This document shows positions 7,571 to 22,037 of a stretch of DNA of 64,000 nt, in pieces. Under the pieces are notes generated by a model. The model had not been told where the DNA came from. It searched no databases and saw nothing but the letters and a program-made list of their open reading frames with translations. Source of the DNA: Kutzneria chonburiensis (GTDB lineage: Bacteria > Actinomycetota > Actinomycetes > Mycobacteriales > Pseudonocardiaceae); the NCBI RefSeq assembly GCF_028622115.1, contig NZ_CP097263.1, forward strand, positions 7,502,001 to 7,566,000, written 5' to 3'. The first letter of the stretch is position 1; each line of letters opens with the position of its first letter. Both the position numbers and the translations under genes were made by a program.

Positions 7571-8800
7571 CTACAACGCGTCCCGCAGCACCGGGCACGA
7601 CATGCAGCGCGGGCCGCCGCGGCCGGAGCCCAGCTCGGAGCCGCTGATCCGGAGCACCTCGATGCCGGCCTCCTCGAGCCGCACATTGGTTTCCACATTT
7701 CGCTCATAAGCGACGACAACGCCGGGCGCGACGGCCAGGGTGTTGTTGCCGTCGTCCCACTGCTCGCGTTCCGCGGTCACGGCGTCGAGACCGGTGTCGA
7801 TCACCCGTAGCCGCTCGATGCCCATCGCCGCGGCGGCCGCTTCCAGGAACGGCGACGGCCCGTCCACGCTGACGCCACCGGCGCCGTCGGGCCGCAACGT
7901 GAAGGCGGACAACGAGTCGCGGATGGCCGGGTACATGACCACGGCGTCCCGGTCGACCATGGTGCACACGGTGTCCAGGTGCATGGTGGCGCGCTCCTGC
8001 GCGATCGGCACGGCCAGCACGGTGTGCGCGAGACCGTCCAGGAACACCGAGCGGGCGAACGACTCGGCGCCGGCCGGGGTGGTGCGCTCGCCGACCCCGA
8101 TGGCCAACACGCCCTGGGACAGCAGCAGCACGTCGCCGCCCTCCAACGGGGCAGAGTGTGCGCCGTACGCCCGGGAGGTCTTGGCGAAGCGCGGGTGGTA
8201 CGCGTAGATCAGGTCGGTGATCGAGGATTCACGGCGACGGGCCGGCATCACCAGCGACGACACGGCGACCCGGTCGGCGACCCAGGCCGAGGAGTCGCGG
8301 GTGAACAGCAGGTTAGGCAGCGGTGCGATGGCGAAGTCGTGCGGCTGGTGCATGTGCCGCACCAGCGAAGCGCCCTCAGCCGCCGGCAGCTCCTCGAACG
8401 TCATGCCGGCCATCAGCACGGTAGCCAGGTCGTCCGGGCCGAGCGTGGTCAGGTGCGACCGCAGCGCGTCGGCCAGGTCGATGCCGAGCTGCCGCTCGTC
8501 GACGGCGGCGTAGATGCCGGCGGCGCGGGCCCGCTGGTCGTCCAGCGAGGTCCGCAGCAGGTCGGCCAGCAGCAGCACCTCGACGCCGCGGGAGCGCAGC
8601 GTCTCGGCGAACGCGTCGTGCTCCTCCTGGGCCCGGCCGACCCAGGGGATGCCGTCGAACAGCAGCTGGTCGTTGTTGCGCGGGGTCAGCCGCTTCAGTT
8701 CCAGGCCGGGCCGGTGCAGCAGCACCGTGCGCAGCGGCCCGACCTCGCTGTCGACCCTCGGCGCGGGCGAGTCCGTGGCAGAACTGATGTCTGAGGTCAC
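7571..8800 (-). CDS. arcA: Arginine deiminase
   Basis: 409 residues. Hydrolyses L-arginine to citrulline and ammonia, the first step of the arginine deiminase pathway. The guanidino-modifying-enzyme landmarks are in order: [17 protein letters not shown] at the N-terminus, NLLFTRDSS, the [14 protein letters not shown] histidine/aspartate segment, and the C-terminal catalytic Cys399 in GGPRCMSCP. No ornithine carbamoyltransferase or carbamate kinase gene is adjacent, so the pathway would have to be completed elsewhere. The GTG start is 7 bases from a TACCCT -10 box, so the mRNA is probably leaderless. Confidence 0.95.
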
Positions 8801-8807
8801 GGCTTCG

Positions 8808-8813
8808 AGGGTA
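8808..8813 (-). promoter_or_regulatory. arcA: -10 element (TACCCT) for leaderless arcA
   Basis: TACCCT on the minus strand ends 7 bases before the GTG of arcA with no ribosome site between. The rest of the gap 8814-8934 is AT-richer than its surroundings and holds a small inverted repeat (TCAGAA with TTCTGA near 8862-8884) of unknown use. Confidence 0.5.
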
Positions 8814-8934
8814 ACCAGGCGACAGTGGATTTGTCGCCCCTCAACCGGGTATTACGGCGATTTCAGAAACAGAATGACGTTCTGAGCAACGGTTCGTTAA
8901 ACAAAAGTGCCATTCGAGCAGCGATCTGTTGTCG

Positions 8935-9738
8935 TCACAATCCGGGGATGACACCCTTCAGGAGGGCGTAGCCGACGAAGGAGAAGATGTCGAGGATGGT
9001 GTGCGCGATCACCAGCGCCCACAGCCGGTTGAACCGCTGCCACACCCGGCCGAACACCAGCCCCAGCACGATGTTGCCGAGGAAGCCGCCGAAGCCCTGG
9101 TACAGGTGGTACGACCCGCGCAGCACGGCCGCGGTGACCAGCGAGGTGTTCTCGCCCCAGCCGAACCGGCGCAGCCGCGTGATCAGGTAGCCGACGACCA
9201 GCGACTCCTCGGCCCACGCGTTGCCGAAGGCCGACAGGATCAGCACCGGCACCCGCCACCAGGTGTCGCCCAGCGCCGACGGCACCACGTTCAGGTTGAT
9301 GCCGATGGCCCTGGTCAGGAAGTAGAACCCCAGTCCGGGGATGCCGATCAGCGCGGCCAGGCCGCAGCCGGCCAGCAGGTCCTTGCCCGGCCGGGTCCGG
9401 TCGAGTCCGACCAGTCGCGGCCCGATGCCGGCCCGCCACAGCAGGTACGCGCCGAGTGCGCCCCAGGCCAGCAGTTGCAGGATCCCGGCCAGCTGGGCCA
9501 GCAGGTCCAGCAGGTCGATCGACGCCTGCTTGACGTTCAGCGCCACGCTCTGCTTGTTCAGCGGCGCGGTTTGGAGCAGCGAGTTGAGCAACGAGATCAG
9601 GCTGCGGATCCCGGAAAGCCCCAGCGTCGCGCTGAAGACGATCAGCAGTTCCCAGGTGTAGCCGCGCCGCTCCGTCGGATCGGTGATCGCGTCCGTGACC
9701 CGCGCCGGGGCCAGCCAGCTGCGCACAACACTCGCCAT
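8935..9738 (-). CDS. CPBP-family intramembrane metalloprotease
   Basis: 267 residues with about six to eight membrane helices. The CPBP (Rce1/abortive-infection) motifs are present: Glu177-Glu178 in NAWAEESLVVGYL, Arg207 and His211 in RGSYHLYQG, and His246 in VIAHTILD. Members cleave within or next to the membrane; in bacteria their roles include bacteriocin immunity and envelope functions, but the substrate here is unknown. It follows the DUF2470 gene by 18 bases on the same strand and so may lie in the same iron-regulated unit. Confidence 0.9.
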   Translation of the reverse strand: MASVVRSWLAPARVTDAITDPTERRGYTWELLIVFSATLGLSGIRSLISLLNSLLQTAPLNKQSVALNVKQASIDLLDLLAQLAGILQLLAWGALGAYLLWRAGIGPRLVGLDRTRPGKDLLAGCGLAALIGIPGLGFYFLTRAIGINLNVVPSALGDTWWRVPVLILSAFGNAWAEESLVVGYLITRLRRFGWGENTSLVTAAVLRGSYHLYQGFGGFLGNIVLGLVFGRVWQRFNRLWALVIAHTILDIFSFVGYALLKGVIPGL

Positions 9739-9756
9739 GCCGGCGGACGCTACCCG

Positions 9757-10545
9757 TTACCCCCGCTGGGCCTGTGTCAAGAACGGGCAGCCCATCAGGC
9801 GTCGCAGCTCGCCGGACAGCTCCGTGGGCGTGCTGACCGGGTGCGCGAAGGCGATCCGGACGTCGTGATCACCTTCGACGGCCTCCACGCGCAGCCGCAG
9901 GCCGAGCCGGTCCAGGCCGAGCGGGCGGACGTGGCCGCCGCGCAGGTGCTCGGGCAGGTGTCGGCTGAGCAGCTCGACGACGTCCCGGTGGGACAGCTCC
10001 AGGTGCCGCAGCCACTGATCTTCCTGCTGGTGGAACGGGTCGGGCTGGGCCTCGCCGAACTCGCTCGGCCGAACCGAACTGGTGCCTTCGGCGTCGGCGA
10101 CGACCATCGAGGCCGGCGTCAGCCGGAGCACGGTGGCGCCGTGGCCGGCGTCCAGCAGGCGCGGATCGGGCTTGGCCTCGACGACCTCGAGGACGGCGGC
10201 CCGGGCCTCCTCGCCGTCCAGAGCCCGCAGCCAACCGGTGATCCAGAGCAGACCGCGCACCGGCTCGCGCAGCGGCACGGGCGCGGTGTCGGCCAGTTCG
10301 AGCATGCCGGTCAGCTCGCCGCGCGGGGCCTGCGCGGCCAGCCCGACCAGCGGATCGTTGTCACGGAACAGGAACGTGGCGACCCCGTTCGCATGCACGT
10401 GGTGCAGCATCGGCACGGTCCGGGACGCCGGGGCCGACGCCTCGTCGGCCCCGGGCAGCACCGCGGCCCGGCCCCCGCGCGCGGCGATCGTCCTTGCCCG
10501 CTCCGCCGCGGTGGGCGCCGGCGGCCGGTACGTGGCCTGGCTCAT
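9757..10545 (-). CDS. DUF2470 domain-containing protein (HugZ-like)
   Basis: 262 residues with a split-barrel-like N-terminal part (TVPMLHHVHANGVATFLFRDNDPLVG) and a C-terminal DUF2470 domain (HVRPLGLDRLGLRLRVEA, then ELRRLMGCPFLT). Related proteins act in heme binding or heme-iron use (HugZ family). The promoter carries a 15/19 match to the IdeR/DtxR iron box, which independently supports a role in iron or heme handling. GGAGGTGA just ahead of the ATG at 10545 is a good ribosome site. The precise reaction is unproven. Confidence 0.88.
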   Translation of the reverse strand: MSQATYRPPAPTAAERARTIAARGGRAAVLPGADEASAPASRTVPMLHHVHANGVATFLFRDNDPLVGLAAQAPRGELTGMLELADTAPVPLREPVRGLLWITGWLRALDGEEARAAVLEVVEAKPDPRLLDAGHGATVLRLTPASMVVADAEGTSSVRPSEFGEAQPDPFHQQEDQWLRHLELSHRDVVELLSRHLPEHLRGGHVRPLGLDRLGLRLRVEAVEGDHDVRIAFAHPVSTPTELSGELRRLMGCPFLTQAQRG

Positions 10546-10559
10546 CGCTCACCTCCAAG

Positions 10560-10578
10560 TTAGGTCACCCTAACCTCT
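10560..10578. promoter_or_regulatory. IdeR/DtxR iron box
   Basis: TTAGGTCACCCTAACCTCT matches the IdeR/DtxR consensus TTAGGTTAGCCTAACCTAA at 15 of 19 positions, including both TAGG and CCTAAC arms. It sits 15 bases ahead of the minus-strand DUF2470 start, where an iron-loaded repressor would block transcription. Derepression of the DUF2470-CPBP pair under iron limitation is the expected outcome. Confidence 0.7.
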
Positions 10579-10623
10579 GTCGGCCGGTCTTGGGAAGGAC
10601 TCGTTCGAGTGTCCCTGACCAGG

Positions 10624-11784
10624 TCATCTACCGACCGCCATGCCCGCTTCCTCCGCCCAGGCTGCCACGTCGTCCCGCCGCAGCGCAGCCGCCAGCAGGT
10701 CGGGGAACCTGTCCGGAGTACAGGCGAAGGCCGGCGCGCCCAGTTCGGACAGCCGCGCGGCCAGCTCGTGGTCGTAGGCCGGCGCACCGCTGTCGGACAG
10801 CGCCAGCAGCACCACCACGGTCACACCGCTGGCCACCAGCTCCCGCACCCGGCGCAGCAGCTCGCCGGCCACGCCGCCCTCGAACAGGTCGCTGATCAGC
10901 ACCATCACCGAGTCGGCCGGCCGCTTGATCAGCGACTGGCCGTAGGCCACGGCCCGGTTGATGTCGGTGCCGCCGCCGAGCTGGGTGGAGAACAGCACGT
11001 CCACCGGGTCGTCCAGGGTCTCGGTCAGGTCGACTACCTCGGTGTCGAACACCACCAGCTTGGTGTCCACGGCGCGGATCGAGGCCAGCACCGCGCCGAA
11101 CACCGCGGAGTAGACCACCGACTCGGCCATCGAGCCGGACTGGTCGACCAGCAGCACCACGTCCCGCAGCGAGGCGGTGCGCGACCGCCGCTGACGGCCG
11201 ATCAGGTCGCCGACCACCACCGTCTTCTGCGCCGGCTGGTAGTTCTTCAGGTTGGCCCTGATGGTCGTGGCCCAGTCCACATCGGACAGACGAGGGCGAC
11301 GGGTGCGCCGCGACCGGTCGATCGCCCCGTGCACGGCGGCCAGCAGCCGGTCGGCCAGCTTGCGCTCGACCTCCTCGACCACCTTGCGCACGACGGCCCG
11401 CGCGGTTTCCCTGGTACGGGCGGGAATTGCCTTGGACAGCGAGACGAGCGTGCCGACCAGTCGCACGTCCGGCTCGACCGTCGACAGCAGTTCCGGCTCC
11501 AGCAGCAGCTTGTTCAGGCCGAGCCGCTCCACGGCGTCGCGCTGCATCACCTGCACCACGGAGGTCGGGAAGTACGTGCGGACGTCGCCGAGCCAGCGGT
11601 GCAGGACCGGGTTACTGTTGCCCAAGCCGGCAGTGCGCTTGCCGTCGCCGCTACCACCGTCACCGCCGCCGTAGAGCGCGGTCAGCGCCCCGTCCCGACG
11701 CTCATCGTCCGCGCCCAGACCGCCCATCTCACCGGCCGCGCCGCCGAGCAGCAGCCGCCACCGCCGTTGCCGTTCGTCGCTCAC
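10624..11784 (-). CDS. VWA domain-containing protein (YehP-like)
   Basis: 386 residues; last gene of the five-gene SWIM-MoxR operon. The C-terminal half is a von Willebrand factor A domain with an intact metal-ion-dependent adhesion site, DQSGS at 214-218, followed by the later Thr (GGGTDIN) and Asp (LISDLFEGG) ligands. The N-terminal half (GNSNPVLHRWLGDVRTYFP, then helical) is specific to this operon type. E. coli YehP is the counterpart in yehLMPQ. MoxR ATPases commonly act with VWA partners in protein or metal-cofactor remodelling; the client here is unknown. The GTG start overlaps the DUF5682 stop by 4 bases. Confidence 0.93.
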   Translation of the reverse strand: MSDERQRRWRLLLGGAAGEMGGLGADDERRDGALTALYGGGDGGSGDGKRTAGLGNSNPVLHRWLGDVRTYFPTSVVQVMQRDAVERLGLNKLLLEPELLSTVEPDVRLVGTLVSLSKAIPARTRETARAVVRKVVEEVERKLADRLLAAVHGAIDRSRRTRRPRLSDVDWATTIRANLKNYQPAQKTVVVGDLIGRQRRSRTASLRDVVLLVDQSGSMAESVVYSAVFGAVLASIRAVDTKLVVFDTEVVDLTETLDDPVDVLFSTQLGGGTDINRAVAYGQSLIKRPADSVMVLISDLFEGGVAGELLRRVRELVASGVTVVVLLALSDSGAPAYDHELAARLSELGAPAFACTPDRFPDLLAAALRRDDVAAWAEEAGMAVGR

Positions 11785-13988
11785 GCCGATGCTCCGATCA
11801 GGTCGCGGACGTGGGCGGCCAGGCGCTCGGCCCGGTCCTCGTCCCAGTCTCCGGTTGGCACCACCACGGTCCGGCTGCCGCCGGCCATCACGCGGTCGCC
11901 GAGGGTGCGGCGCTCGGCCGAGCTGAAGTCGCCGACCGCGCGCCGTAGCAGCGGCAACGCGTCCGCGAACGCCTCGGGCGACAGGCCGGTGAGCCAGGTG
12001 TCGATCAGCGCGAACATCCGGTCGTCGGCGGCCAGCAGTGCGGCCGAGCCGCGCAGGAAGCCGGCCACGAAGGCCGTCGCACCGGAGGTCGAAGACTCTG
12101 CGCGGGAAAGCTGGGCGGACACCGCTCGATGCAGTCGGGCGGCCACGGAATCTGTATCCAGGTCGCCGGATTCCCACAGCAGCCGAGTCGCCCGACCGGC
12201 CGGCAGACCGTGTGCGTCGGCCAGCCCGACCAGCCGGATCAGCGCGTCCCGCCACACCGCCCGGTGATCGTCGTCGGCGGCCAGGCCGGCGGCGTCCTGG
12301 GCGGCGTCGAGGGCGGCCACCAGCTGGTCGGCGGTGTCGTCGTCCACGTTGCGGCAGGCCAACGGCAGCCCGACCGCGCCACGGGCCAGCAGGCCGTGCA
12401 GCGCGGATCGCAGCAGCTCGGGATCGGTGCCGCGTACGGAGCCGTAGCGCACTGTGCTGGCCAGGGAGGGCAAGGCCTGCAACAACTCGGCGGCGTCGGT
12501 CGCGGCGGCGGCGCACCGGTCGAGGGCTCGACGGGCAGCGGCCACGGCGGCCGGCGACTCGCAGAAGACCGACTGCTCCAACACTGTGGCGGCCTTGGCC
12601 ACACGGTCGGCGTCCTCGGCGCGCTGACGCAAAACCTGCTCAGCTGCGGCTTCCACGGTCGTGCCGTGCCGCGCGGCGGCCGCCACGGCGACTGCGAGGC
12701 TCGGATCCCAGCGCACCCGCCACGCCTCGGCGAAGGTGCCGGTGCTGTTGGTGTGGTCGTGCTCGCCCCACGGCACGTCCAGCACATTCAAGCGCCGCAA
12801 CAACTTCGACCGCTCGCGGTCCATGTCCTTACGGAGGTCGAGCCGGAACTGCTTCTCGATCGCGGCCGCCGGCAGCCGCAGACGTCGTTGCAGGCGTTCG
12901 AGATCCGCGGCCAGCGGCGAGCGCGGCACGCCCTCGCCGACCATGCCCAGTTCCTCGCCGACCACCAGCTTCTCGTGCACGATCCGCAGCGGCGTGTCGT
13001 CACCGCCGCACAGCACGGCCAGCGTCGCCTCGCTGACCTCGGCCAACCCGGGCGACGGCCGGCCTCGCATGGCCGCCAACGCGTCGGCCAGCCGTACGGC
13101 CTCGACGGCGCTGGCCGTGGACGCCGGCAGATCTTCGTCACGCAACACCTGGCATGCGCGGGCGAACCAGCGCGGCACCGCGTCGCCGGCGGCCGCGGTC
13201 TCCCACAGATGCGCGTACCAGCCGGGGGAGGCGATGCCGGCGCCGTACCCGGCGGCGTTCGCCAGCCGGCCGTGGCTCCACGGCACCCAGGTGCCGCTGA
13301 TCTTCTTCTTCGGCAGGCCTTTGAGCAGCGCGGTATCCGCCCCCACCGTGGGCAGGTCCAGCAGCGCCGGCACGTGCCAGGCACCGCAGACGACCACGAT
13401 CGGGCCGTCGACCTCCTTGAGCCCCTTGCGGATCGCCTGCCGCATCGCCGCCTCGCGACGCAACGTGCGCTGGCCGACGTGGTCGGCGAACTCCTCCCGC
13501 AGCGCGGTCATTGCCTCGGCGACGGCCTGTGCCAGCCCGATCGGATCGGCCGCCGCGTGGTGCTCGACGACGTCCTCCCACCAGCGTTCCGGGTCGTCGA
13601 AGCCGGCGGCCTCAGCCAGCAGACCCAGCGGGTCGATGGCCACCCGGTCCGGCTCGTCGTCCTCGCCCAGCGTCGCCGCCGCGGCCAGGTCGAAGAACCG
13701 CAGCGGGACGGCGTTCTCGTCGGCCCAGCGCAGCGCCTGCCACTCCGGCGAGAAGCCGGCGAACGGCCAGAACGCGGCCGTCGCCGGATCGGCCTCGTCG
13801 TGCAGCAGCAGCGCGACCGGCGGGGTCAGCCCGCTCACGTGCGCGACCAGCCCGTCGGCCTCCGGCGGCCCCTCCACGAGCACCAGCGCCGGCTCGACGG
13901 CCGCCAGCGCGGCGGCCACCATCCGCGCCGATCCCGGCCCGTGGTGGCGGATGCCGAGCAGCGTGACGCGGTCGGGGAGCTTGGGCAT
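11781..13988 (-). CDS. DUF5682 family protein (YehM-like)
   Basis: 735 residues. The conserved head reads TLLGIRHHGPGSARM (His15, His16) and VLVEGPPEAD (Glu39), with GAWHVPALL (His205) about 165 residues later. This spacing of a GxxH-like motif, a glutamate and a second GxxH recalls the TIKI/TraB/EreA hydrolase superfamily, an inference I could not test. The long remainder is helical and family-specific. E. coli YehM is the equivalent. The ATG at 13988 overlaps the MoxR stop by one base (TGATG). Confidence 0.92.
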   Translation of the reverse strand: MPKLPDRVTLLGIRHHGPGSARMVAAALAAVEPALVLVEGPPEADGLVAHVSGLTPPVALLLHDEADPATAAFWPFAGFSPEWQALRWADENAVPLRFFDLAAAATLGEDDEPDRVAIDPLGLLAEAAGFDDPERWWEDVVEHHAAADPIGLAQAVAEAMTALREEFADHVGQRTLRREAAMRQAIRKGLKEVDGPIVVVCGAWHVPALLDLPTVGADTALLKGLPKKKISGTWVPWSHGRLANAAGYGAGIASPGWYAHLWETAAAGDAVPRWFARACQVLRDEDLPASTASAVEAVRLADALAAMRGRPSPGLAEVSEATLAVLCGGDDTPLRIVHEKLVVGEELGMVGEGVPRSPLAADLERLQRRLRLPAAAIEKQFRLDLRKDMDRERSKLLRRLNVLDVPWGEHDHTNSTGTFAEAWRVRWDPSLAVAVAAAARHGTTVEAAAEQVLRQRAEDADRVAKAATVLEQSVFCESPAAVAAARRALDRCAAAATDAAELLQALPSLASTVRYGSVRGTDPELLRSALHGLLARGAVGLPLACRNVDDDTADQLVAALDAAQDAAGLAADDDHRAVWRDALIRLVGLADAHGLPAGRATRLLWESGDLDTDSVAARLHRAVSAQLSRAESSTSGATAFVAGFLRGSAALLAADDRMFALIDTWLTGLSPEAFADALPLLRRAVGDFSSAERRTLGDRVMAGGSRTVVVPTGDWDEDRAERLAAHVRDLIGASA

Positions 13989-15088
13989 CAGGCGTAACCG
14001 GCCAGGTCGTGGTCCTGGCAGGCGCGGTACAGGTCGCGCCACTCCGGCCGCTCCTTGACCACGGCCTCCAGGTATTCCTGCCAGGCGGCGGTGTCCGACA
14101 CGCGGTCCTTGACCACGGCGCCGAGCAGCCCGGAGGCCAGCTCGTCGGCCCCGAGGTTGCCGTCACCGAAGTGCGCCGCGAGCGCCATGCCGCTGGTGAT
14201 CACGGAGATCGCCTCGGCCGTGGACAGGCTGCCGCTCGGCTTCTTGAGCTGAGTGCGACCGTCCACCGTGGACCCATTGCGCAGCTCGCGGAACACCCGC
14301 ACCACCCGGCGCACCTCCTCCAGGGCCGGCGGCTCGGCCGGCAGCTGGAGCGCCCGCCCGAGCTGGGCGGCCCGGCTGGAGACGATCTCCACCTCGGCGT
14401 CCTCGCTGGCCGGCGGGGGCAGCACCACGGTGTTGAACCGGCGGGCCAGCGCCGAGGACATCTGGTTCACGCCACGGTCCCGGTCGTTGGCCGTGGCGAT
14501 GATCGAGAAGCCGGGCACGGCCTGAACCTGGAAGTTCAGCTCCGGCACCGGCAATGCCTTCTCGGAAAGCACGGTGATCAGCGAGTCCTGCACCTCGGAC
14601 GGCATCCGGGTGAGCTCCTCGACCCGGGCGATGGCCCCGGTCTTCATGGCCCGCAGCACCGGGCTGGGCACCAACGCCGCCTCGCTCGGCCCTTCCGCGA
14701 TCAGCCGGGCGTAGTTCCAGCCGTAGCGGACGGATTCCTCACTCGTGCCGGCCGTGCCCTGCACGACGAGCGTGGAGTCGCCGCTGACGGCCGCGGCCAG
14801 GTGCTCGGACAGCCACGACTTCGCGGTGCCGGGCACGCCGACCAGCAGCAGCGCGCGGTCGGTGGCCAGCGTGGCCACGGCGACCTCGACGATCCGCCGG
14901 TCGCCAACGTACTTCGGGGTGATGGCGGTGCCGTCGGGCAGCTCGCCGCCGAGCACGTAGCGGACCACGGCCTGCGGCGACAGCTTCCACATCGGCGGCT
15001 TCGGGCGGTCGTCAACCGCCGCCAGCGCTTGCAGCTCGGCGGCGTACTGCTGCTCGGCAGACGGCCGCAGCACGGTTTCGGAAGTCAC
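13988..15088 (-). CDS. MoxR-type AAA+ ATPase (YehL-like)
   Basis: 366 residues. AAA+ ATPase of the MoxR class: Walker A GVPGTAKS at 84-91, sensor-1 region IIATANDRDRG, then MSSALARRFNTVVLP with the arginine typical of MoxR. The Walker B region is AIARVEELTRMP, with Glu158-Glu159 where DE is usual; E. coli YehL has a similar EEL sequence, so this is a subfamily trait, not decay. It would use ATP to remodel a target together with the VWA partner encoded two genes downstream. GTG start overlaps the DUF5691 stop (GTGA). Confidence 0.94.
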   Translation of the reverse strand: MTSETVLRPSAEQQYAAELQALAAVDDRPKPPMWKLSPQAVVRYVLGGELPDGTAITPKYVGDRRIVEVAVATLATDRALLLVGVPGTAKSWLSEHLAAAVSGDSTLVVQGTAGTSEESVRYGWNYARLIAEGPSEAALVPSPVLRAMKTGAIARVEELTRMPSEVQDSLITVLSEKALPVPELNFQVQAVPGFSIIATANDRDRGVNQMSSALARRFNTVVLPPPASEDAEVEIVSSRAAQLGRALQLPAEPPALEEVRRVVRVFRELRNGSTVDGRTQLKKPSGSLSTAEAISVITSGMALAAHFGDGNLGADELASGLLGAVVKDRVSDTAAWQEYLEAVVKERPEWRDLYRACQDHDLAGYA

Positions 15089-16458
15089 TGATCGCCCTTT
15101 CGATCGAACGCGTCCCGCAGTTGGACGCGCAGGTGCAGCACGGCTTGTTCGTTGGTGTGTTCCGGCCAGCGTTCGGCGATCCGTGGCCATTGCGCGGTCA
15201 ATACGCCGACATCGCCTCTGGTCAGCAGTACGGGCGGCGGCCGCCCGGTGCGCCACCCGGGCGTGACGGCGACGACGAAGCGTTCCAGCAGCGCCTCGGT
15301 GGTGCCGGCCGACCACGGCCCCGGCAGTTGCGAGCAGCCGTGGTCGAGCAGGTCGTACTTCCAGTCGTGCGACACGGCGACCAGCACTTCGGAGGCTGTG
15401 CGTGCCGGCAGCGAGTCGATCGCGTCCAGCAGCGCCATGCCGGTCAGCACCTCGGACGCCGCCAGCGCCCACGGCACCGGGTCGGCCGCCAGCGGTAGCG
15501 CATCGGCGATGCCTTGCAGCAGCGGCTTGGCCCATGGGCTGGCCATCACCTGGTCCAGCTCCCAGAACTCCGGTGGCACCGACGCCGCGGCGGCGCGCAG
15601 TCGGCCGGCGATGCCGATCTCGGTGTTGCCGTCGTGCAGCAGGTCCCGCTTCTCGGCCTCGTCCGGCTCCAGCTCGAACCGTCCGTCCGGGATCACGTCG
15701 GCGTCGCGCAGGCCGTCCCAGAGCCGGCGCTCGGCCCGCTGCGCCAACGCCGTTCCCGGCAGCTTGCGCAGCAGCCGCAACGCCAGGTCGTGCACGCCGG
15801 CGGCCCGGTCGTCCAACGCGGCCTCGAGGATCGGCTCGTCCTCGATGGACAGGCCGACCTCGAGCGCGTTGATCAGCAGCTGCCGATCGGTCGCCCGGCG
15901 CTCTTCCGGGAACCGCTCCGCGATCAGTGCTCGGACCGCCCCCTGGTCGGTCCGCCGCCACAGCCGCAGCGCGGTCAGCCGCCTGCCGGCCGGCGCATCC
16001 GGGTCGTACGGCTCCTGCTCGTCGACGCCGATCGCCCACGACCAGTCCTTGCTCAACTGCGCCAGCCACCGGCCGCGCGCCCCCAACACGAGCCGGATCG
16101 CCGGTCGCAGCGTCGGACGCCCCCCGCCCAGCGCCAGCAACTGCGGCAACTGGGCATGCGTCGCAACGACCTTGGCCCGGCTGGCCGCCGCGCACCACTC
16201 CGTCAGCAGGGCTTCGTCGTCCCAGCCCAAAACCTGGGCCAGCACGGTGCGCGCCGAATCACCGGCCAGCTGCGCATTCTCCGGCGGTGCAAGGGAAATT
16301 GGCGTCAAATCGGCCGGCGTCATCGGCAGCCGCGCGCCGAACCGGGCCACGCCCAGCGCCGCGCAGTCGGTCAGCAGCGTGTCCCGGTCGACGTTGCCTC
16401 GGCGCGTCCCGACGAGCAGCTGTTGCACGGTGTCCTGCCACCGTTGCTCCATGTTCAC
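15085..16458 (-). CDS. DUF5691 family protein
   Basis: 457 residues, helical and repeat-like, without signal peptide or membrane helices. It begins near MEQRWQDTVQQLLVGTRRG and ends in a charged helix. DUF5691 proteins occur between the SWIM and MoxR genes in this operon type and have no known activity; the alternating helices (DLALRLLRKLPGTALAQRAERRL and similar) suggest a HEAT-like scaffold, as inference. The GTG at 16458 is preferred because GGAGG lies 7 bases upstream and gives the same 4-base overlap as its neighbours; ATG 16452 is the alternative. Confidence 0.9.
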   Translation of the reverse strand: MNMEQRWQDTVQQLLVGTRRGNVDRDTLLTDCAALGVARFGARLPMTPADLTPISLAPPENAQLAGDSARTVLAQVLGWDDEALLTEWCAAASRAKVVATHAQLPQLLALGGGRPTLRPAIRLVLGARGRWLAQLSKDWSWAIGVDEQEPYDPDAPAGRRLTALRLWRRTDQGAVRALIAERFPEERRATDRQLLINALEVGLSIEDEPILEAALDDRAAGVHDLALRLLRKLPGTALAQRAERRLWDGLRDADVIPDGRFELEPDEAEKRDLLHDGNTEIGIAGRLRAAAASVPPEFWELDQVMASPWAKPLLQGIADALPLAADPVPWALAASEVLTGMALLDAIDSLPARTASEVLVAVSHDWKYDLLDHGCSQLPGPWSAGTTEALLERFVVAVTPGWRTGRPPPVLLTRGDVGVLTAQWPRIAERWPEHTNEQAVLHLRVQLRDAFDRKGDQ

Positions 16459-17705
16459 GACACCACCTCCGGGAACGCCCCCGGCTCGGCGATTGCGCAC
16501 AGCTGAAGGGAATTCCCGTCCCACAGCCCCATCGCGTCGAACGGCGCGCCGCCGGTTCGGGCCAGCGCCTGGGCCAGCGACGCGCCCGCCCGTACCGGCA
16601 GGGCACGGTCGACCACGTCGACCAGGAACAGCGACCGGTCGTCCCTGGCCGGCTTCGTTGCCTTGGCGCACAACGGAACCAGCCGCAGCCACGGGTCGCC
16701 GGCCAGCAGCGGCTCGGCCGCCGCCAGCGCCTGCTCCCACGTGTCCGCCACCGGAATCGGGCCGGCCGGACCGGTCCGCGTTATCTCGCCGACCGCCACC
16801 CGCCGCGGCAGTCCGCCCGGATAGGGATGCATCACCGCCGTCAATTCCGCCCCAGGAGTCATTGCCGGCACGGGAATCGCGCCGCCGGCCGCGTGCCGCG
16901 CCGTGTACACCCACTGCTTGCGGGAACGCCCCCATGCCCACTGGCGCACCGTGCGTACCTTGCCGTCGTCGCTGTCCATACGGAGCAGGACCACCCAGTC
17001 GTCGGCCCAGCTCTCGCCGGCCCGCACTTCTTGCTCCGTGGTGGTGAAGCCGAGCCGAACCCTTGCCGCGTCGGAGAAATCGGTGCGTGTGAGCAGGTAG
17101 AGCCGTCCGATGTGGTCGGTCGCCTCCTCGTACCAGCGCGGGCGGTTGGCCCCCACCACCGACCGCAGCTCGCCGATCGCCGAGGCGATGCCGGGCGCCT
17201 GCGCATCCACCATCCGGGCCATGATTCCTTGCCACCACGCCTGTTCCCGCGACGGCAACGTGTGCAGGCCACCGGCCGACAGGTCGGTCAGCCAGTCCGT
17301 GAGGCCGGCGATGCCCGCCCGTACCGACTCCTCGCGCCGCTTGCCCGGCTGCGCCGGCTTGCGTTCCGCCGTGGCCCGTGTGTGCCGGGCCCGCAGCCAG
17401 TTGCCGACCCACTCCGGCTGATTGCCTTCCTGGGTGGAACCGTTGACGTGCAACAACTGTAGGGCCACCGCGTGCTTGCACGGGAACTTGCGCGACGGGC
17501 ACGAGCACTTCGTCGCCCGGTCCGTGAGGTCGACGCAGACCTGATACGGGCTCTTGCCGCTGCCCTGGCACAGCCCCCACAGCGCGGCGTCGTCGCGGCC
17601 CAGCTCCGGCCACTTCGCCGGCGCCGCCAGCTTGCTGGCCCCGGTCGCCACCTGGCGGTCCGGCGCCTGCGCCAGCACTGCTTCCACGTCCATGCCAATG
17701 ACCAT
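16455..17705 (-). CDS. SWIM zinc-finger protein (YehQ-like)
   Basis: 416 residues; first gene of the operon. A SWIM zinc-binding motif CxCx6CxH is intact at Cys67, Cys69, Cys76 and His78 (KCSCPSRKFPCKHAVAL). SWIM domains bind nucleic acid or protein. Later segments (WWQGIMARMVDAQAPGIA, DDWVVLLRMDSDDGK, KQWVYTARHAAGGAIPVP) are specific to this family. E. coli YehQ is the counterpart. ATG 17705, behind GGGGGGT, is chosen; GTG 17729 and ATG 17693 are alternatives. It is divergent from the membrane-protein triplet. Confidence 0.92.
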   Translation of the reverse strand: MVIGMDVEAVLAQAPDRQVATGASKLAAPAKWPELGRDDAALWGLCQGSGKSPYQVCVDLTDRATKCSCPSRKFPCKHAVALQLLHVNGSTQEGNQPEWVGNWLRARHTRATAERKPAQPGKRREESVRAGIAGLTDWLTDLSAGGLHTLPSREQAWWQGIMARMVDAQAPGIASAIGELRSVVGANRPRWYEEATDHIGRLYLLTRTDFSDAARVRLGFTTTEQEVRAGESWADDWVVLLRMDSDDGKVRTVRQWAWGRSRKQWVYTARHAAGGAIPVPAMTPGAELTAVMHPYPGGLPRRVAVGEITRTGPAGPIPVADTWEQALAAAEPLLAGDPWLRLVPLCAKATKPARDDRSLFLVDVVDRALPVRAGASLAQALARTGGAPFDAMGLWDGNSLQLCAIAEPGAFPEVVS

Positions 17706-17837
17706 ATGGGCACCCCCCGACAGTTTCACCGACCTTCACTTGCCCCGGTCCGTTCCCGCAGGTCACAGTCGGATGAAGCCGTTAGGCCGGGCGAGTGCAC
17801 CCCTGATAGGAATCAGCGCGTCAGCCGAGGGGGATTG

Positions 17838-18812
17838 GTGGCAAGGGTGAGGACTGCCGTCTGGCAGCCGCCGACGGGCCGGCCGGCCGGTCGGGACCCC
17901 GACGTGCGGCGGAGTCTGCGGCTGCTGCGTGAGCACAGCGACCGGCTTGCACGGGCCTGGTCGGGCTTGGTCTTCCTCGCGCTGCTCTGTCTGTTCACCG
18001 GTCTCCCGGTGAGCACCGGCCTCGCGACGGTGGCGGTGCTGTTGGTCAGCCGGCGCATGATCACGCAGTGGCTCCGGGTGGGGCGATACCGCGCCGTGGT
18101 CGACGAGCTGCTGGCCACCGAGCCGGCCCGCTCGATCGAGGCGGAGCACCTCGGCGGTCAGCTGTTGAGGATCGACGGCAACACACTGCGCTTCCCGATT
18201 CTCATGCCGACGGTCCGCCTGGCCGACCACGTCTGGCTGGTCGGCCCGAATGCCGCCGGCCAGGCGGTCGTGTTCGGCGACGCCGTGGTGTACCCGAACT
18301 TCGGTCAGACGGTGGCGGAGCCGGCGCAGCACCTGTCCGGCCAGCGGCCGGCACGGGGCGAACCTCAGGTGGGGGCTCGGTCCTCGGCGCGATCGGCCGC
18401 TCGGGGTTTCGCCCGGCGCTGGGCGTTCACCGCGCTGATGGTCATCTCGATCGGCACCGAGCTGGCGCCGCAGCCGCAGGTGCTGACCTGGCTGTACGTG
18501 ATCGCCGCGCTGACGATCCTGGTGCTGGCCGGCCGGCAGTGGCTGCGCATCGTGCCCTGCTTGCAGGCACCGGGCCTGCTCCGCGCGCCGCTCGTCGACT
18601 ACCCGGCGAAATTGGGCCCCGACCAGTCGGTTGTCGTCACCTTGCCGGACGGCTCCGAGTTGGCCGGCAAGGTCGTGTGGTCCGTGCAGCTGCTCGCCAA
18701 CGTGCGAGCCTCGGGGCTGCTGTGGGTGGCGGGCATACCCGCTCCCGGTATGACGCTCGGTGTGGGCGTGCCGGACTATCCCATCGCCGGGGTCGTCCGG
18801 TTCGACAAGTAG
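17838..18812 (+). CDS. Membrane protein, tandem family member 1
   Basis: 324 residues, function unknown. Two hydrophobic pairs (about 40-70 and 195-235) each precede a small soluble domain. The first soluble part contains HVWLVGPNAAGQAVVFGD and the second ends ASGLLWVAGIPAPG..GVPDYPIAGVVRF. Both motifs recur in the next two genes, as does a tryptophan-proline pair near the N-terminus (VWQPP). The GTG at 17838 follows GAGGGGGA. It opens a three-gene unit divergent from the SWIM-MoxR operon. Confidence 0.85.
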   Translation: MARVRTAVWQPPTGRPAGRDPDVRRSLRLLREHSDRLARAWSGLVFLALLCLFTGLPVSTGLATVAVLLVSRRMITQWLRVGRYRAVVDELLATEPARSIEAEHLGGQLLRIDGNTLRFPILMPTVRLADHVWLVGPNAAGQAVVFGDAVVYPNFGQTVAEPAQHLSGQRPARGEPQVGARSSARSAARGFARRWAFTALMVISIGTELAPQPQVLTWLYVIAALTILVLAGRQWLRIVPCLQAPGLLRAPLVDYPAKLGPDQSVVVTLPDGSELAGKVVWSVQLLANVRASGLLWVAGIPAPGMTLGVGVPDYPIAGVVRFDK

Positions 18813-18823
18813 GGGGAACAGGG

Positions 18824-19858
18824 GTGGACAACGCGCAGTTGTCGGTGGCCGTGTGGCGGCCGATGGAGTCGTGGCAGACCGAGGACAAGGCGGTCGAGCT
18901 GCGGATGCAGGTCTACGCACGGGGAGCCCGCAATGCGGTGACGGGGCTGGTCGTGTCGTTGGTGCTGGCCGCGGTGCTGGTGGCCTTCCTGCGCACCGTG
19001 AGCGCCTTCGGTGTGGTGTTCGGGCTGAACGCGATCCGGCTGGCGGTGGCCGGCATCCGGCACCAGGTCCGCTACAGCCGCTGGCTGCCGGCGGCGAGGA
19101 GCCTGCTCAACGGCACTCCGGCGCAACGGCTGGCGGCGCGGATCGTGGCGTACAAGGGCGAACGGGTGGTGCTGGCGGTCGGGGCGATGCATCTCCAGGT
19201 GCGGCCGGTGAACTGGGGCCTGCGGCAGGTCATCGCCCGTACGGGCGAGATCACGGTGGTCGGCCCGGATGCGGACGGCCAGGCGGTGGTGTTCCTGGAC
19301 GGCGTGCCGACGCCGCTGCCGGCCAAGGTCGTGGCGGCTCCGGAACCGACCGAAGCGGAGCCGGTCGTGCCGGTCTCGGTCAACGGCGCCGAGGACCAGG
19401 TGCCGAACTGGGCCGCCCGCCGGATCGCCTGGCTCAACTGGATCCCGCTCGCGGTGGCGCTGGTCGTGCTGGCCGGATTCATCGCCCTGGCGCCGAACTC
19501 CCAGGTCGCGGTGTTCTACGCGAGCGGTTTCGGGGTGCTGCTGCTGGTCGTCGCGATCCTGTTCCTGTTCGTGCCGAGCGACCAGCTGCGGCTGCGCAAG
19601 CTGCTGGCCGCCGGGCAGTGGCAGGCCCACCCGGTGACCATCGAGTCGTGGAAGGGCGAGGTGCGGCGGCCGGTCGGTGAGCTGACGCTGGTGCTGGCCA
19701 GCGGATACCGGTTGTCGATCAAGTTCGCCACGACCGAGCTGGTGGCCAACATCAGCGCCACCGGCACGCTGTGGATGGTGGGCCTGCCCGGTGACCGCAA
19801 GGGCGCCGCGGTGGGCATCCCGGGCTATCCGATTCTCACGGCTGCGAGGTTCGCGTGA
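18824..19858 (+). CDS. Membrane protein, tandem family member 2
   Basis: 344 residues, paralogue of its neighbours. It starts with AVWRPMESWQTEDKA, has hydrophobic helices at about 37-70 and 203-245, the internal motif VVGPDADGQAVVFLDG, and the closing motif ATGTLWMVGLPGD..VGIPGYPILTAARF. It begins 11 bases after member 1 and overlaps member 3 by 4 bases (GTGA), so all three are probably made together. No catalytic motif is visible; a membrane complex of three related subunits is plausible but unproven. Confidence 0.85.
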   Translation: MDNAQLSVAVWRPMESWQTEDKAVELRMQVYARGARNAVTGLVVSLVLAAVLVAFLRTVSAFGVVFGLNAIRLAVAGIRHQVRYSRWLPAARSLLNGTPAQRLAARIVAYKGERVVLAVGAMHLQVRPVNWGLRQVIARTGEITVVGPDADGQAVVFLDGVPTPLPAKVVAAPEPTEAEPVVPVSVNGAEDQVPNWAARRIAWLNWIPLAVALVVLAGFIALAPNSQVAVFYASGFGVLLLVVAILFLFVPSDQLRLRKLLAAGQWQAHPVTIESWKGEVRRPVGELTLVLASGYRLSIKFATTELVANISATGTLWMVGLPGDRKGAAVGIPGYPILTAARFA

Positions 19859-20877
19859 ACGACATGTGGCGGCCGCCGGCCGTGGCGCTGGGCAGCGACC
19901 CGGCGGTGCAGTTGCACCTGAACTACTGGCGCAACCGCAAGCTGGTGCGGCCGATCGTCGCGTTCCTGGTGCTGGCGGTGCTGATGTTCTTGCTGCACCG
20001 GGGTTTCAGCATGCTGGGGGTGCTGTTCGTGGTGCTGGCGGCGGTGACGGCGGCGGCTCCGATTCAGTTCCGGTCGCGGATCGGCTGGTGGTTGCCGGCG
20101 GCGCCGTCACTGATGGACGGTGCGCCGGTGGTGCGGGTGCGCGGCGAGGTGGTCGGCGGCGACAAGGCGTGGATGCTGCTGTCGGTTGACGGGGGACGGC
20201 TGCACCTGCGGGTGACGAACGTGCGGCGGCCGATCCGGCAGCTGGTGGCCAGGCAGCGGGAGATGTCGCTGATCGGCCCGAACGCGGACGGCGTGGCAGC
20301 GGTGGTGCTGGACGGAGTGTCGTTCCCGCTGCCGGCGAAGGTCGTGCCGGCGCCGGCCGAGCCCCGGCCCGAGCCGATCACGGAGGAGGACCTGTCGCGC
20401 CTGGCGGCGGCCCAGGCGGCCCTGCTGGTGTGGTTCGGGGTCGGCTTCGTGACGTTGCTCGGCGCGAGTGTGCTGTTCGATCTGCTGCTGGTGATGGACG
20501 GCTGGATCGCGGCGACGATCGGCTTTGTCATCGTCCTGCTCGCGGGCTTCATCGCGAGCTTCTTCCGGCGCGGCGACCAGCACCGCATGGTGAAGCTGCT
20601 GCGCAACGGCCCGTGGCAGGCCTACCCGGTGCAACTGCTGTCCTGGACCGGGAATCCCGGGCTGGTCGGCCGGCTACGGCTGGCGCTGACCCTGCCGGAC
20701 GGGAGTCAGCTGCCGGTCAGCGCGCGGCTGGCGCCGTCGTGGCTGATCGCCAACATCAGCGCCACGGGCTACGTGTGGGTGGCCGGCAGCCCACACCGCG
20801 ACCAAGCGGCCGTGGTGGGACTGCCGGGCTATCCGCTGGTGGCGGCGGTGCGGTTCCGGGAGCTTCAGGCCCGCTGA
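19855..20877 (+). CDS. Membrane protein, tandem family member 3
   Basis: 340 residues, third paralogue: DMWRPPAVALGSDPA at the N-terminus, hydrophobic helices at about 33-65 and 185-235, the motif LIGPNADGVAAVVLDG and the closing ATGYVWVAGSPHRD..VGLPGYPLVAAVRF. Its last 13 bases overlap the end of the convergent hmgA gene. As with the two upstream members, the function is unknown. Confidence 0.85.
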   Translation: MNDMWRPPAVALGSDPAVQLHLNYWRNRKLVRPIVAFLVLAVLMFLLHRGFSMLGVLFVVLAAVTAAAPIQFRSRIGWWLPAAPSLMDGAPVVRVRGEVVGGDKAWMLLSVDGGRLHLRVTNVRRPIRQLVARQREMSLIGPNADGVAAVVLDGVSFPLPAKVVPAPAEPRPEPITEEDLSRLAAAQAALLVWFGVGFVTLLGASVLFDLLLVMDGWIAATIGFVIVLLAGFIASFFRRGDQHRMVKLLRNGPWQAYPVQLLSWTGNPGLVGRLRLALTLPDGSQLPVSARLAPSWLIANISATGYVWVAGSPHRDQAAVVGLPGYPLVAAVRFRELQAR

Positions 20878-22037
20878 CGGCGGGCCCAGGTCCAGGCGTA
20901 CGCGTCGTCCTCGCACGCCTGGGCCGCCTCGCCGAGTTCCAGCGGGCGGAACGTGTCCACCATCACAGCGGTCTCGTCGAAGAAGTCCGCGCCGAGCGAC
21001 GCCTCGACCGCGCCCGGCTGCGGCCCGTGCGTGCAGCCGGCGGGGTGCAGGGACAGCGAGCCGATGCCGATGCCGGAGCCCTTACGGGCCTCGTAGTTGC
21101 CGCCGACGTAGAACATCAGCTCGTCCGAGTCGACGTTGGCGTGGTTGTACGGCACGGGAATCGACAGCGGGTGGTAGTCCACCTTGCGCGGGCAGAACGA
21201 GCAGACCACGAAGTTGGGGCCCTCGAACGTCTGGTGCACCGGCGGCGGCTGGTGCAGCCGGCCGGTGATCGGCTCGAAGTCCCGGATGTTGAACGCCCAC
21301 GGGTACAGGCAGCCGTCCCAGCCGACCACGTCGAACGGGTGGTTGGCGTAGGTGAACCGGGTCACGCCGGCCCGGTGCCGGACCAGCACGTCGACGTCCT
21401 CGCCGTCGGCCAGCAGCGGCTCGGACGGGCCGCGGACGTCCCGCTCGCAGTACGGGGAGTGCTCCAGGAACTGGCCCTTGGTCGACAGGTAGCGCTTGGG
21501 CGGGCCGATGTGGCCGGTGGCCTCCAACACGAGAATGCGCATCGGCTCGCCGGCGGTTGGCACCACCCGATAGGTGCACGAGGTGGGGATCACCACGTAG
21601 TCGCCGTCGCCGACAGCGATCGACCCGTAGATCGTCTCCACCATGCCGGCGCCGGTCTGCACGTAGAGCAGCTCGTCGCCGGTGGCGTTGCGGTAGAGCG
21701 GGCTCGGCGCGGTCGCGGCGACGAAGTTGATCACGACGTCGGAGTTGCCGAACAGCACCCGACGGCCGGTGACGGCGTCGGCGTTGTCCCAGTTCAGGTC
21801 GGGTGTCTTGAAGTGTCGAGGCTTCAACGGCAGGTTCGGCGTCGGCGCCTGGCGGTGGTCGTCGACCACCTGTGCGTCGACGATCGCGGTGGGCAGATAC
21901 CGGTGGTAGAGCAGGGCCGAATCCGACGAGAAACCCTCGACTCCCATCAGCTCCTCGGCGTACAGGCCACCCTCCGGCGTGCGGAACTGGGTGTGCCGCT
22001 TGCGGGGGATCTCGCCGACCTGTCGGTAGTAAGGCAT
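20865..22037 (-). CDS. hmgA: Homogentisate 1,2-dioxygenase
   Basis: 390 residues. Cleaves the homogentisate ring to maleylacetoacetate in tyrosine/phenylalanine breakdown. The cupin core is intact: PYNHANVDSDELMFYVGGNYEARKG and SLSLHPAGCTHGPQPGA supply the histidine and glutamate iron ligands, and HPFDVVGWDGCLYPWAFNI is the family's conserved central segment. It is divergent from the unknown gene at 22107 and fumarylacetoacetase. GGAGAG ahead of the ATG at 22037 serves as ribosome site. Confidence 0.95.
   Translation of the reverse strand: MPYYRQVGEIPRKRHTQFRTPEGGLYAEELMGVEGFSSDSALLYHRYLPTAIVDAQVVDDHRQAPTPNLPLKPRHFKTPDLNWDNADAVTGRRVLFGNSDVVINFVAATAPSPLYRNATGDELLYVQTGAGMVETIYGSIAVGDGDYVVIPTSCTYRVVPTAGEPMRILVLEATGHIGPPKRYLSTKGQFLEHSPYCERDVRGPSEPLLADGEDVDVLVRHRAGVTRFTYANHPFDVVGWDGCLYPWAFNIRDFEPITGRLHQPPPVHQTFEGPNFVVCSFCPRKVDYHPLSIPVPYNHANVDSDELMFYVGGNYEARKGSGIGIGSLSLHPAGCTHGPQPGAVEASLGADFFDETAVMVDTFRPLELGEAAQACEDDAYAWTWARRQRA

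Follow-up and report, generated by a model that had tools for sequence, protein, structure and literature searches.

A conserved five-gene cassette of Kutzneria chonburiensis with a MoxR–DUF5682–VWA core and a predicted TraB/TIKI-like hydrolase domain

What could a SWIM zinc-finger protein, a DUF5691 protein, a MoxR ATPase, a DUF5682 protein and a VWA protein be doing together? The question is raised by contig NZ_CP097263.1 of Kutzneria chonburiensis (assembly GCF_028622115.1), where five intact genes for these proteins lie in this order on the minus strand, at positions 10624–17705 of the window. By the window we mean the whole stretch of 64,000 nucleotides that was analyzed (7,502,001 to 7,566,000 of the forward strand), which is part of a single 10.4 Mb contig. 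In gene order from SWIM to VWA, the junctions overlap by 4, 4, 1 and 4 bases. An earlier reading of the letters alone (hereafter the sequence-only reading) had described five such genes with overlaps of 1–4 bases, and both the coordinates and the Pfam matches agree with it. That reading also took the overlaps to imply a fixed stoichiometry. According to our analysis, they suggest that the genes may be translationally coupled, but they do not fix stoichiometry.

To understand if the five genes belong together, we scanned contigs with the DUF5682 alignment, which confirmed at least 570 relatives. The best 80 of these, the window and E. coli K-12 make up the set of 82 loci used here. Iterated profiles detected DUF5682 in all 82 loci, MoxR in 75, VWA in 74, DUF5691 in 73 and SWIM in 70, and 68 loci keep all five genes. 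The genes are thus not scattered at random among relatives. Such scatter is what the sequence-only reading had named as refuting its proposal, and its view of one operon-like system with a MoxR/VWA core is supported. The order SWIM–DUF5691–MoxR–DUF5682–VWA on one strand was observed in 52 loci (50 by script and two, L056 and L108, with a fused SWIM–DUF5691 frame, added by eye; counted on aligned positions), from about six phyla: Actinomycetota, Bacteroidota, Cyanobacteriota, Pseudomonadota, Planctomycetota and Verrucomicrobiota. SWIM–DUF5691 is divergent from MoxR–DUF5682–VWA in 10 loci of Streptomyces and a near relative, the VWA gene stands upstream on the opposite strand in 5 Lentzea loci, and it comes first in locus L101. 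SWIM and DUF5691 share a single open frame in 4 loci (L056, L060, L080 and L108). Short same-strand junctions, from −10 to +10 bases, account for 38/70, 42/62, 59/75 and 53/68 of the junctions in gene order, which are upper bounds, as the most favorable start was taken each time.

Co-occurrence extends beyond linked genes. Among 296 actinobacterial genomes, DUF5682 is found in 25 and DUF5691 exceeds the cut-off in 22, all of which are among those 25; DUF5691 matches below the cut-off occur in 5 more genomes. We then searched 9 genomes for MoxR and SWIM, 7 with a locus that was short of partners or ended early, and those of L055 and L105 as positive controls. In 8 of the 9, a matching MoxR was either present at another place in the genome or verified at the locus, and SWIM was found in 7; the search of the L071 genome, a metagenome bin, returned neither, and that of the L088 genome returned no SWIM. 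When the five proteins are compared across 63 loci, their distance matrices correlate at 0.84–0.94, the highest value among 200 permutations being 0.14; shared host descent contributes to these correlations. Median identity over the same loci is 69% for MoxR, 60% for VWA, 47% for DUF5682, 35% for SWIM and 26% for DUF5691. The recurrence of the same gene set and order across phyla, and the retention of partners in the genome when they are unlinked, rule out chance neighbors: the five genes are one conserved system.

Which part of it is constant became clear from 13 further loci, a subset picked from other DUF5682 matches. Twelve of them are of other subtypes, and L125, from a congener, is of the five-gene type. 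At L125:8354-10016, the match to the DUF5682 profile skips from position 433 to 631, which looks like a lack of about 200 residues. MoxR and VWA are encoded beside DUF5682 in all 13 loci while the other parts differ, and therefore MoxR–DUF5682–VWA is the constant core and the recognition parts vary. Five loci of the actinobacterial phylum (L120, L121, L123, L124 and L126) form an E. coli-like group, in which a YehQ-like SWIM protein and a DUF4132 protein are encoded. In three others (L116–L118), DUF5682 is divergent and longer, and the open frame that follows VWA encodes a CxC...CxH finger, which the Pfam SWIM model scores below its cut-off (E 0.028). In this longer subtype, a giant protein is encoded upstream of MoxR at L116:1606-7458 (1951 residues) and L118:11758-16509 (1584 residues); neither has a significant Pfam match, and the L116 protein gives only PHP_C at E 0.042. 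The last four (L119, L122, L127 and L128) have the order VWA–MoxR–DUF5682, a very divergent DUF5682 and no CxC...CxH finger nearby. A gene for a TerD-domain protein adjoins the set in L127.

The E. coli genes yehL-yehM-yehP-yehQ had been put forward as relatives, and this stands for three of the four. YehL, YehM and YehP are relatives of the MoxR, DUF5682 and VWA proteins, at 445, 573 and 457 bits with profiles that had absorbed E. coli sequences during iteration; the Pfam DUF5682 model alone matches YehM at E 2.4e-98. The three genes have the same MoxR–DUF5682–VWA order as the cassette. YehQ is a different SWIM protein, encoded last, with no sequence kinship to the cassette SWIM protein beyond the finger, and was rejected as its ortholog (E 0.14 to that family's profile). 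A control search of the whole E. coli genome found no DUF5691. Unlike the window cassette, the E. coli set has a DUF4132 gene (yehI) upstream. An association with DUF4132 (MolR), also raised by the sequence-only reading, holds for a minority: all 5 E. coli-like loci have the gene, and it directly follows VWA in 4 of the 80 five-gene-type loci, all Bacteroidota. In Deinococcus radiodurans, the accessible text of PMC8533742 reports that genes for a DUF4132 protein and a WGR protein rise strongly on depletion of DdrO, a DNA-damage repressor, and calls MolR a member of the LexA regulon. This hints at a DNA-damage link for the DUF4132-bearing subtype.

The DUF5682 protein (735 residues, 11781–13988, minus strand; Pfam DUF5682, E 5.8e-228) consists of a predicted TraB/TIKI-like N-terminal domain, residues 1–262 (13203–13988), and a long helical region. 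The likeness to TraB was spotted in the DUF5682 alignment and recorded before the profile tests. A conserved His–Glu pair with a second His (GxxH, E, GxxH) is a trait of TraB/TIKI proteins, and DUF5682 matches the superfamily (TraB/PrgY/GumN, TIKI, Ere and ChaN) in the order and register of its GxxH, E, R and GxxH. These residues lie in GIRHHGP (G12 and H15, 13935–13955), VEGPP (E39, 13863–13877), RREAAMR (R178, E179 and M182, 13440–13460) and GAWH (G202 and H205, 13374–13385). H15, E39, R178, E179, M182, G202 and H205 are invariant in 82/82 loci and in 58/58 rows of a subtype-spanning set; G12 is kept in 82/82 and 53/58. In a forced full-length profile alignment, G12/H15, E39, R178 and G202/H205 fall on G16/H19, E45, R217 and G240/H243 of TraB. 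Among the sequence comparisons, it is this register that counts. The score of the real TraB alignment, 26.2, was unmatched by 200 column shuffles and 100 block shuffles (best 22.6); rotated TraB profiles equaled it in at least 5 of 44 cases, which is to be expected when rotation preserves a short local match. When the AlphaFold model of the full protein (mean predicted local distance difference test, pLDDT, 87.9) was compared with viral structures by Foldseek, a marseillevirus TraB family protein ranked first (probability 1.00, E 0.016; next E 0.13). According to the accessible text of PMC6254334, catalysis by active TIKI proteins is proposed to depend on the His–Glu pair, and that of PMC12329661 describes TIKI proteins as metalloproteases.

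Several observations weigh against this assignment. Sequence homology to TraB is not significant (hhalign E 0.0044–0.012, probability 4–8%): DUF5682 gave E 0.0093 with 22 TraB sequences and 0.0044 with a more varied TraB set, and among the controls MoxR, at 0.012, came uncomfortably close (VWA 0.11; others 0.13, 0.27, 0.47 and 0.61). The viral TraB match reaches only E 0.016, with a template-modeling (TM) score of 0.43 by target. In the PDB, Foldseek found no match at E 0.001, and the 50 matches listed are mainly helical-repeat proteins, without a TIKI member among them; by sequence, the N-domain has no relative in the PDB (best E 0.59). The Pfam model TraB_PrgY_gumN detected nothing in the window's genome at E 0.001, and the Pfam matches of YehM, followed to E 0.1, do not include TraB. 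The 58-row set counts three loci twice. A metal, a substrate, a protease activity and a complex are all putative.

As to hhalign, it has little power either way, because the known pair TraB and Ere fails it too (E 0.63); DUF5682 against Ere sequences gave E 0.053–0.067, and global mode gave nothing for any pair. The Pfam scan of the DUF5682 protein at E 0.001 returned PF18934 alone. Since the Pfam TraB model misses the protein, we term it TraB-like and not a TraB family member; it also differs from the superfamily by its long helical region and by accompanying an AAA+ motor. Overall, the support for a TraB/TIKI-superfamily hydrolase in DUF5682 is moderate. Residues 1–262 very probably adopt the TraB/TIKI fold, a core of parallel beta-sheet with helices on its flanks, and the domain is probably catalytic, as a hydrolase and possibly a metal-dependent protease. 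This identity looks like a new one. Because the N-domain looks TraB/TIKI-like and its putative catalytic residues are invariant, DUF5682 is more likely an enzyme or effector than a client selector. The proposal of the sequence-only reading that SWIM and DUF5682 select the client therefore loses its DUF5682 half; SWIM, together with DUF5691, appears the better candidate for recruitment.

The motor itself is intact. The MoxR protein (366 residues, 13988–15088, minus strand; Pfam AAA_5, E 3.4e-36) has the Walker A and Walker B elements of an AAA+ ATPase of the YehL subfamily. According to the accessible text of PMC3893208, YehL, one of two MoxR proteins of E. coli, gives its name to a MoxR subfamily without an assigned role. 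The Walker A sequence GVPGTAKS (residues 84–91, 14816–14839) has its G and PGTAK invariant in 75/75 rows. In the Walker B region RVEELTR (residues 155–161, 14606–14626), R, EE and the final R are likewise invariant. This region reads RVEE in all 75 rows; the usual Walker B is D-E. The nearest solved relatives of MoxR are Midasin (E 3.8e-19) and NorQ (E 1.7e-5). The CoxE-type VWA protein encoded alongside (386 residues, 10624–11784, minus strand; Pfam VWA_CoxE, E 4.5e-53) has no match in the PDB at E 0.01 as a single sequence. Its metal-ion-dependent adhesion site (MIDAS) is intact, as the sequence-only reading had noted: DxSxS is DQSGS (residues 214–218, 11131–11145), the T lies in GGGTD (10963–10977) and the D in ISD (10888–10896), and DQSGS, GGGT and D are kept in 73/74 rows with a gap in the other.

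We file the cassette as a variant of the MoxR–VWA systems. Like RavA–ViaA, NorQ–NorD, CoxD–CoxE and Midasin, it encodes an AAA+ MoxR ATPase with a MIDAS VWA partner; beyond these systems, as far as the accessible sources describe them, it has a candidate TraB-like hydrolase and a SWIM–DUF5691 pair. According to the accessible text of PMC7159879, the VWA site of such pairs captures a client peptide for ATP-driven remodeling. The same paper describes MoxR–vWA ternary conflict systems, which, like the cassette, combine MoxR, VWA and a third component as a unit; its main text makes no mention of YehL, SWIM, TIKI, EreA or any DUF56xx. The cassette MoxR scores below the cut-off of Pfam bpMoxR (23.1 of 27 bits), and no VMAP, iSTAND or beta-propeller third component is among the Pfam matches of the five proteins at E 0.001.

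The two remaining proteins could serve for recognition. The SWIM protein (416 residues, 16455–17705, minus strand; Pfam SWIM, E 1.4e-5, 25 bits against a cut-off of 19.6) is the first gene product, though its start may be at 17693 and not 17705, since the 92% identical relative L036 starts there. It consists of an N-terminal SWIM zinc finger, a helical middle and a beta-rich, OB-like C-terminus (model pLDDT 92.6). The finger is of the CxC...CxH type and intact: its core CSCPSRKFPCKH (residues 67–78, 17472–17507) keeps three Cys and the His in 68/71 aligned rows, with gaps in the other 3. The C-terminal region (residues 233–416, 16458–17009) is supported, weakly, by DSSP of the model and by Foldseek: the top PDB match is the single-strand DNA-binding protein LEF-3, followed by eIF5A and, lower, RPA70, with a best E of 2.7e-3 and low TM-scores. 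All three are OB-fold proteins. By sequence, the best PDB match of the SWIM protein is at E 0.5. The DUF5691 protein (457 residues, 15085–16458, minus strand; Pfam DUF5691, E 5.9e-58) is a HEAT-like helical scaffold, whose profile matches artificial alphaRep repeat proteins (best E 1.3e-4), which are HEAT-like.

How might these parts work together? We propose that the five products act as a single machine, in which MoxR would assemble as an AAA+ ring and work with the VWA protein. The MIDAS of the latter would hold a partner by a carboxylate or a peptide. This partner, acted on or through, would be DUF5682, a TraB/TIKI-superfamily hydrolase domain on a HEAT-like arm; it is placed there because it is the protein always encoded with the motor. 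ATP-driven remodeling by MoxR and VWA might then open, load or feed the hydrolase site, and the SWIM protein, through its zinc finger and OB-like domain, could recruit the machine with the DUF5691 scaffold to a substrate that is perhaps bound to nucleic acid. We rate the coupling of motor and hydrolase at a little under an even chance, and the whole model, in which the MoxR/VWA motor gates or feeds a DUF5682 hydrolase recruited by SWIM–DUF5691, stands no higher. Nucleic-acid recruitment through SWIM–DUF5691 is doubtful. The widest form of the idea, a phylum-spanning ATP-driven machine with a TIKI-type protease-like enzyme and SWIM–OB–HEAT targeting to nucleic-acid-bound substrates, is tentative and, taken as a whole, less likely than not.

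The constant triad would also fit a maturase, in which DUF5682 receives a metal at its His/Glu site from MoxR and VWA, or has this site folded by them, and then acts as an independent hydrolase. Such a role would parallel the client roles described for NorQ/NorD and CoxD/CoxE; the VWA protein is of the CoxE type, NorQ is among the nearest solved relatives of MoxR, and the accessible text of PMC7159879 describes metal-insertion roles for MoxR/VWA pairs. A maturase leaves SWIM and DUF5691 unexplained, however, and its metal is conjectural; TIKI enzymes can be metal-independent according to the accessible part of PMC6254334. We consider it unlikely, if worth keeping in mind.

Slightly less likely still, in our judgment, is an assembly chaperone for an unlinked client, with DUF5682 in a structural role and its TraB-like site either inactive or used for binding only. 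MoxR/VWA pairs are known assembly factors, according to the accessible text of PMC7159879 and PMC3893208, the very slow evolution of MoxR would suit such a task, and most of DUF5682 is helical-repeat-like. The genes around the cassette are compatible with a client encoded elsewhere: among 109 neighbors, out of 161 listed for 39 loci, none of the Pfam and PADLOC families was found more than twice in the matches listed (25 of 132 and 163 families). What speaks against the chaperone is that H15, E39, R178, E179 and H205 are invariant across otherwise dissimilar subtypes, beyond what a fold needs.

A role in defense was examined on the same neighbors. The sequence-only reading had considered co-occurrence with defense genes, which our results do not bear out: no defense family recurs beside the cassette, the top count being 2/109 (a raw count without a background rate). 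PADLOC gives the SWIM protein a weak match to the candidate model PDC-S62 (E 5.9e-5) and the other four proteins no match to any model, and a search of viral contigs yielded no relatives. Within these limits, the PADLOC scan, the viral-contig search and the neighbor families led us to reject a defense-island or prophage origin. An anti-phage or conflict system with a TraB-like effector, akin to the ternary systems of PMC7159879, has in its favor the three-part logic, the weak PDC-S62 match, single neighbors that match defense models and a patchy distribution (84/295 genomes of the window's class, 25/296 of its phylum and 7/198 Bacteroidota), but it is very unlikely, given the silence of PADLOC on four proteins, the lack of recurrence and of viral relatives, and a MoxR identity unlike arms-race evolution.

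A LexA-type box upstream of the operon was likewise rejected: the whole window holds 4 matches at up to 2 mismatches (chance mean 2.29), none of them near 17.7 kb. No sigma-70-like promoter was found in 8800–18200, a scan that has little power because of the 71% GC content.

The literature searched, with most subscription papers outside its scope, makes no mention of DUF5682 or DUF5691 and gives no published function for the operon. The yeh genes of the E. coli operon appear there only in two genome announcements, YehL is named together with MoxR in four papers, searches for MoxR with TraB return only unrelated papers, and no report of a TIKI/TraB enzyme coupled to an AAA+ motor was found. If the proposal is true, a TIKI-fold enzyme would for the first time be known to work with such a motor, YehL, YehM and YehP of E. 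coli would gain a role, and a hydrolase would be added to the things that MoxR/VWA motors drive. The named residues (H15, E39, R178 and H205) make what was a string of DUFs testable by point mutants. The core triad is widespread, DUF5682 being over the cut-off in 84/295 genomes of the class to which the window belongs.

The window DUF5682 protein is 93% identical, in its best segment, to that of Kutzneria buriramensis, where a DUF2470-type gene stands at the same place beside the cassette. In the window, the DUF2470 gene (10545-9757, minus strand) begins 78 bases after the VWA gene and is followed on the same strand by a gene for a CAAX-protease-like protein (9738-8935). The family of open reading frames (ORFs) that contains the DUF2470 gene recurs in 8 loci from related genera, counting the window, and is not typical of other phyla. 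Because of this shared placement and family, the cassette transcript may continue into the DUF2470 gene.

On the other side, upstream of SWIM, a divergent plus-strand ORF starts near 17847, as read from the sequence. It opens a run of three tandem ORFs (17847-20877, plus strand) with a common C-terminal motif, LW.AG.P ... VG.P.YP ... RF, whose products have no Pfam family and resemble a triplicated membrane protein. The three ORFs stand between the cassette and a homogentisate-dioxygenase-like gene (20865-22037); a gene of this kind lies directly upstream of SWIM in locus L048. Far from the cassette, a gene for an NB-ARC/TPR protein (61722-63998, minus strand) runs to the end of the window.

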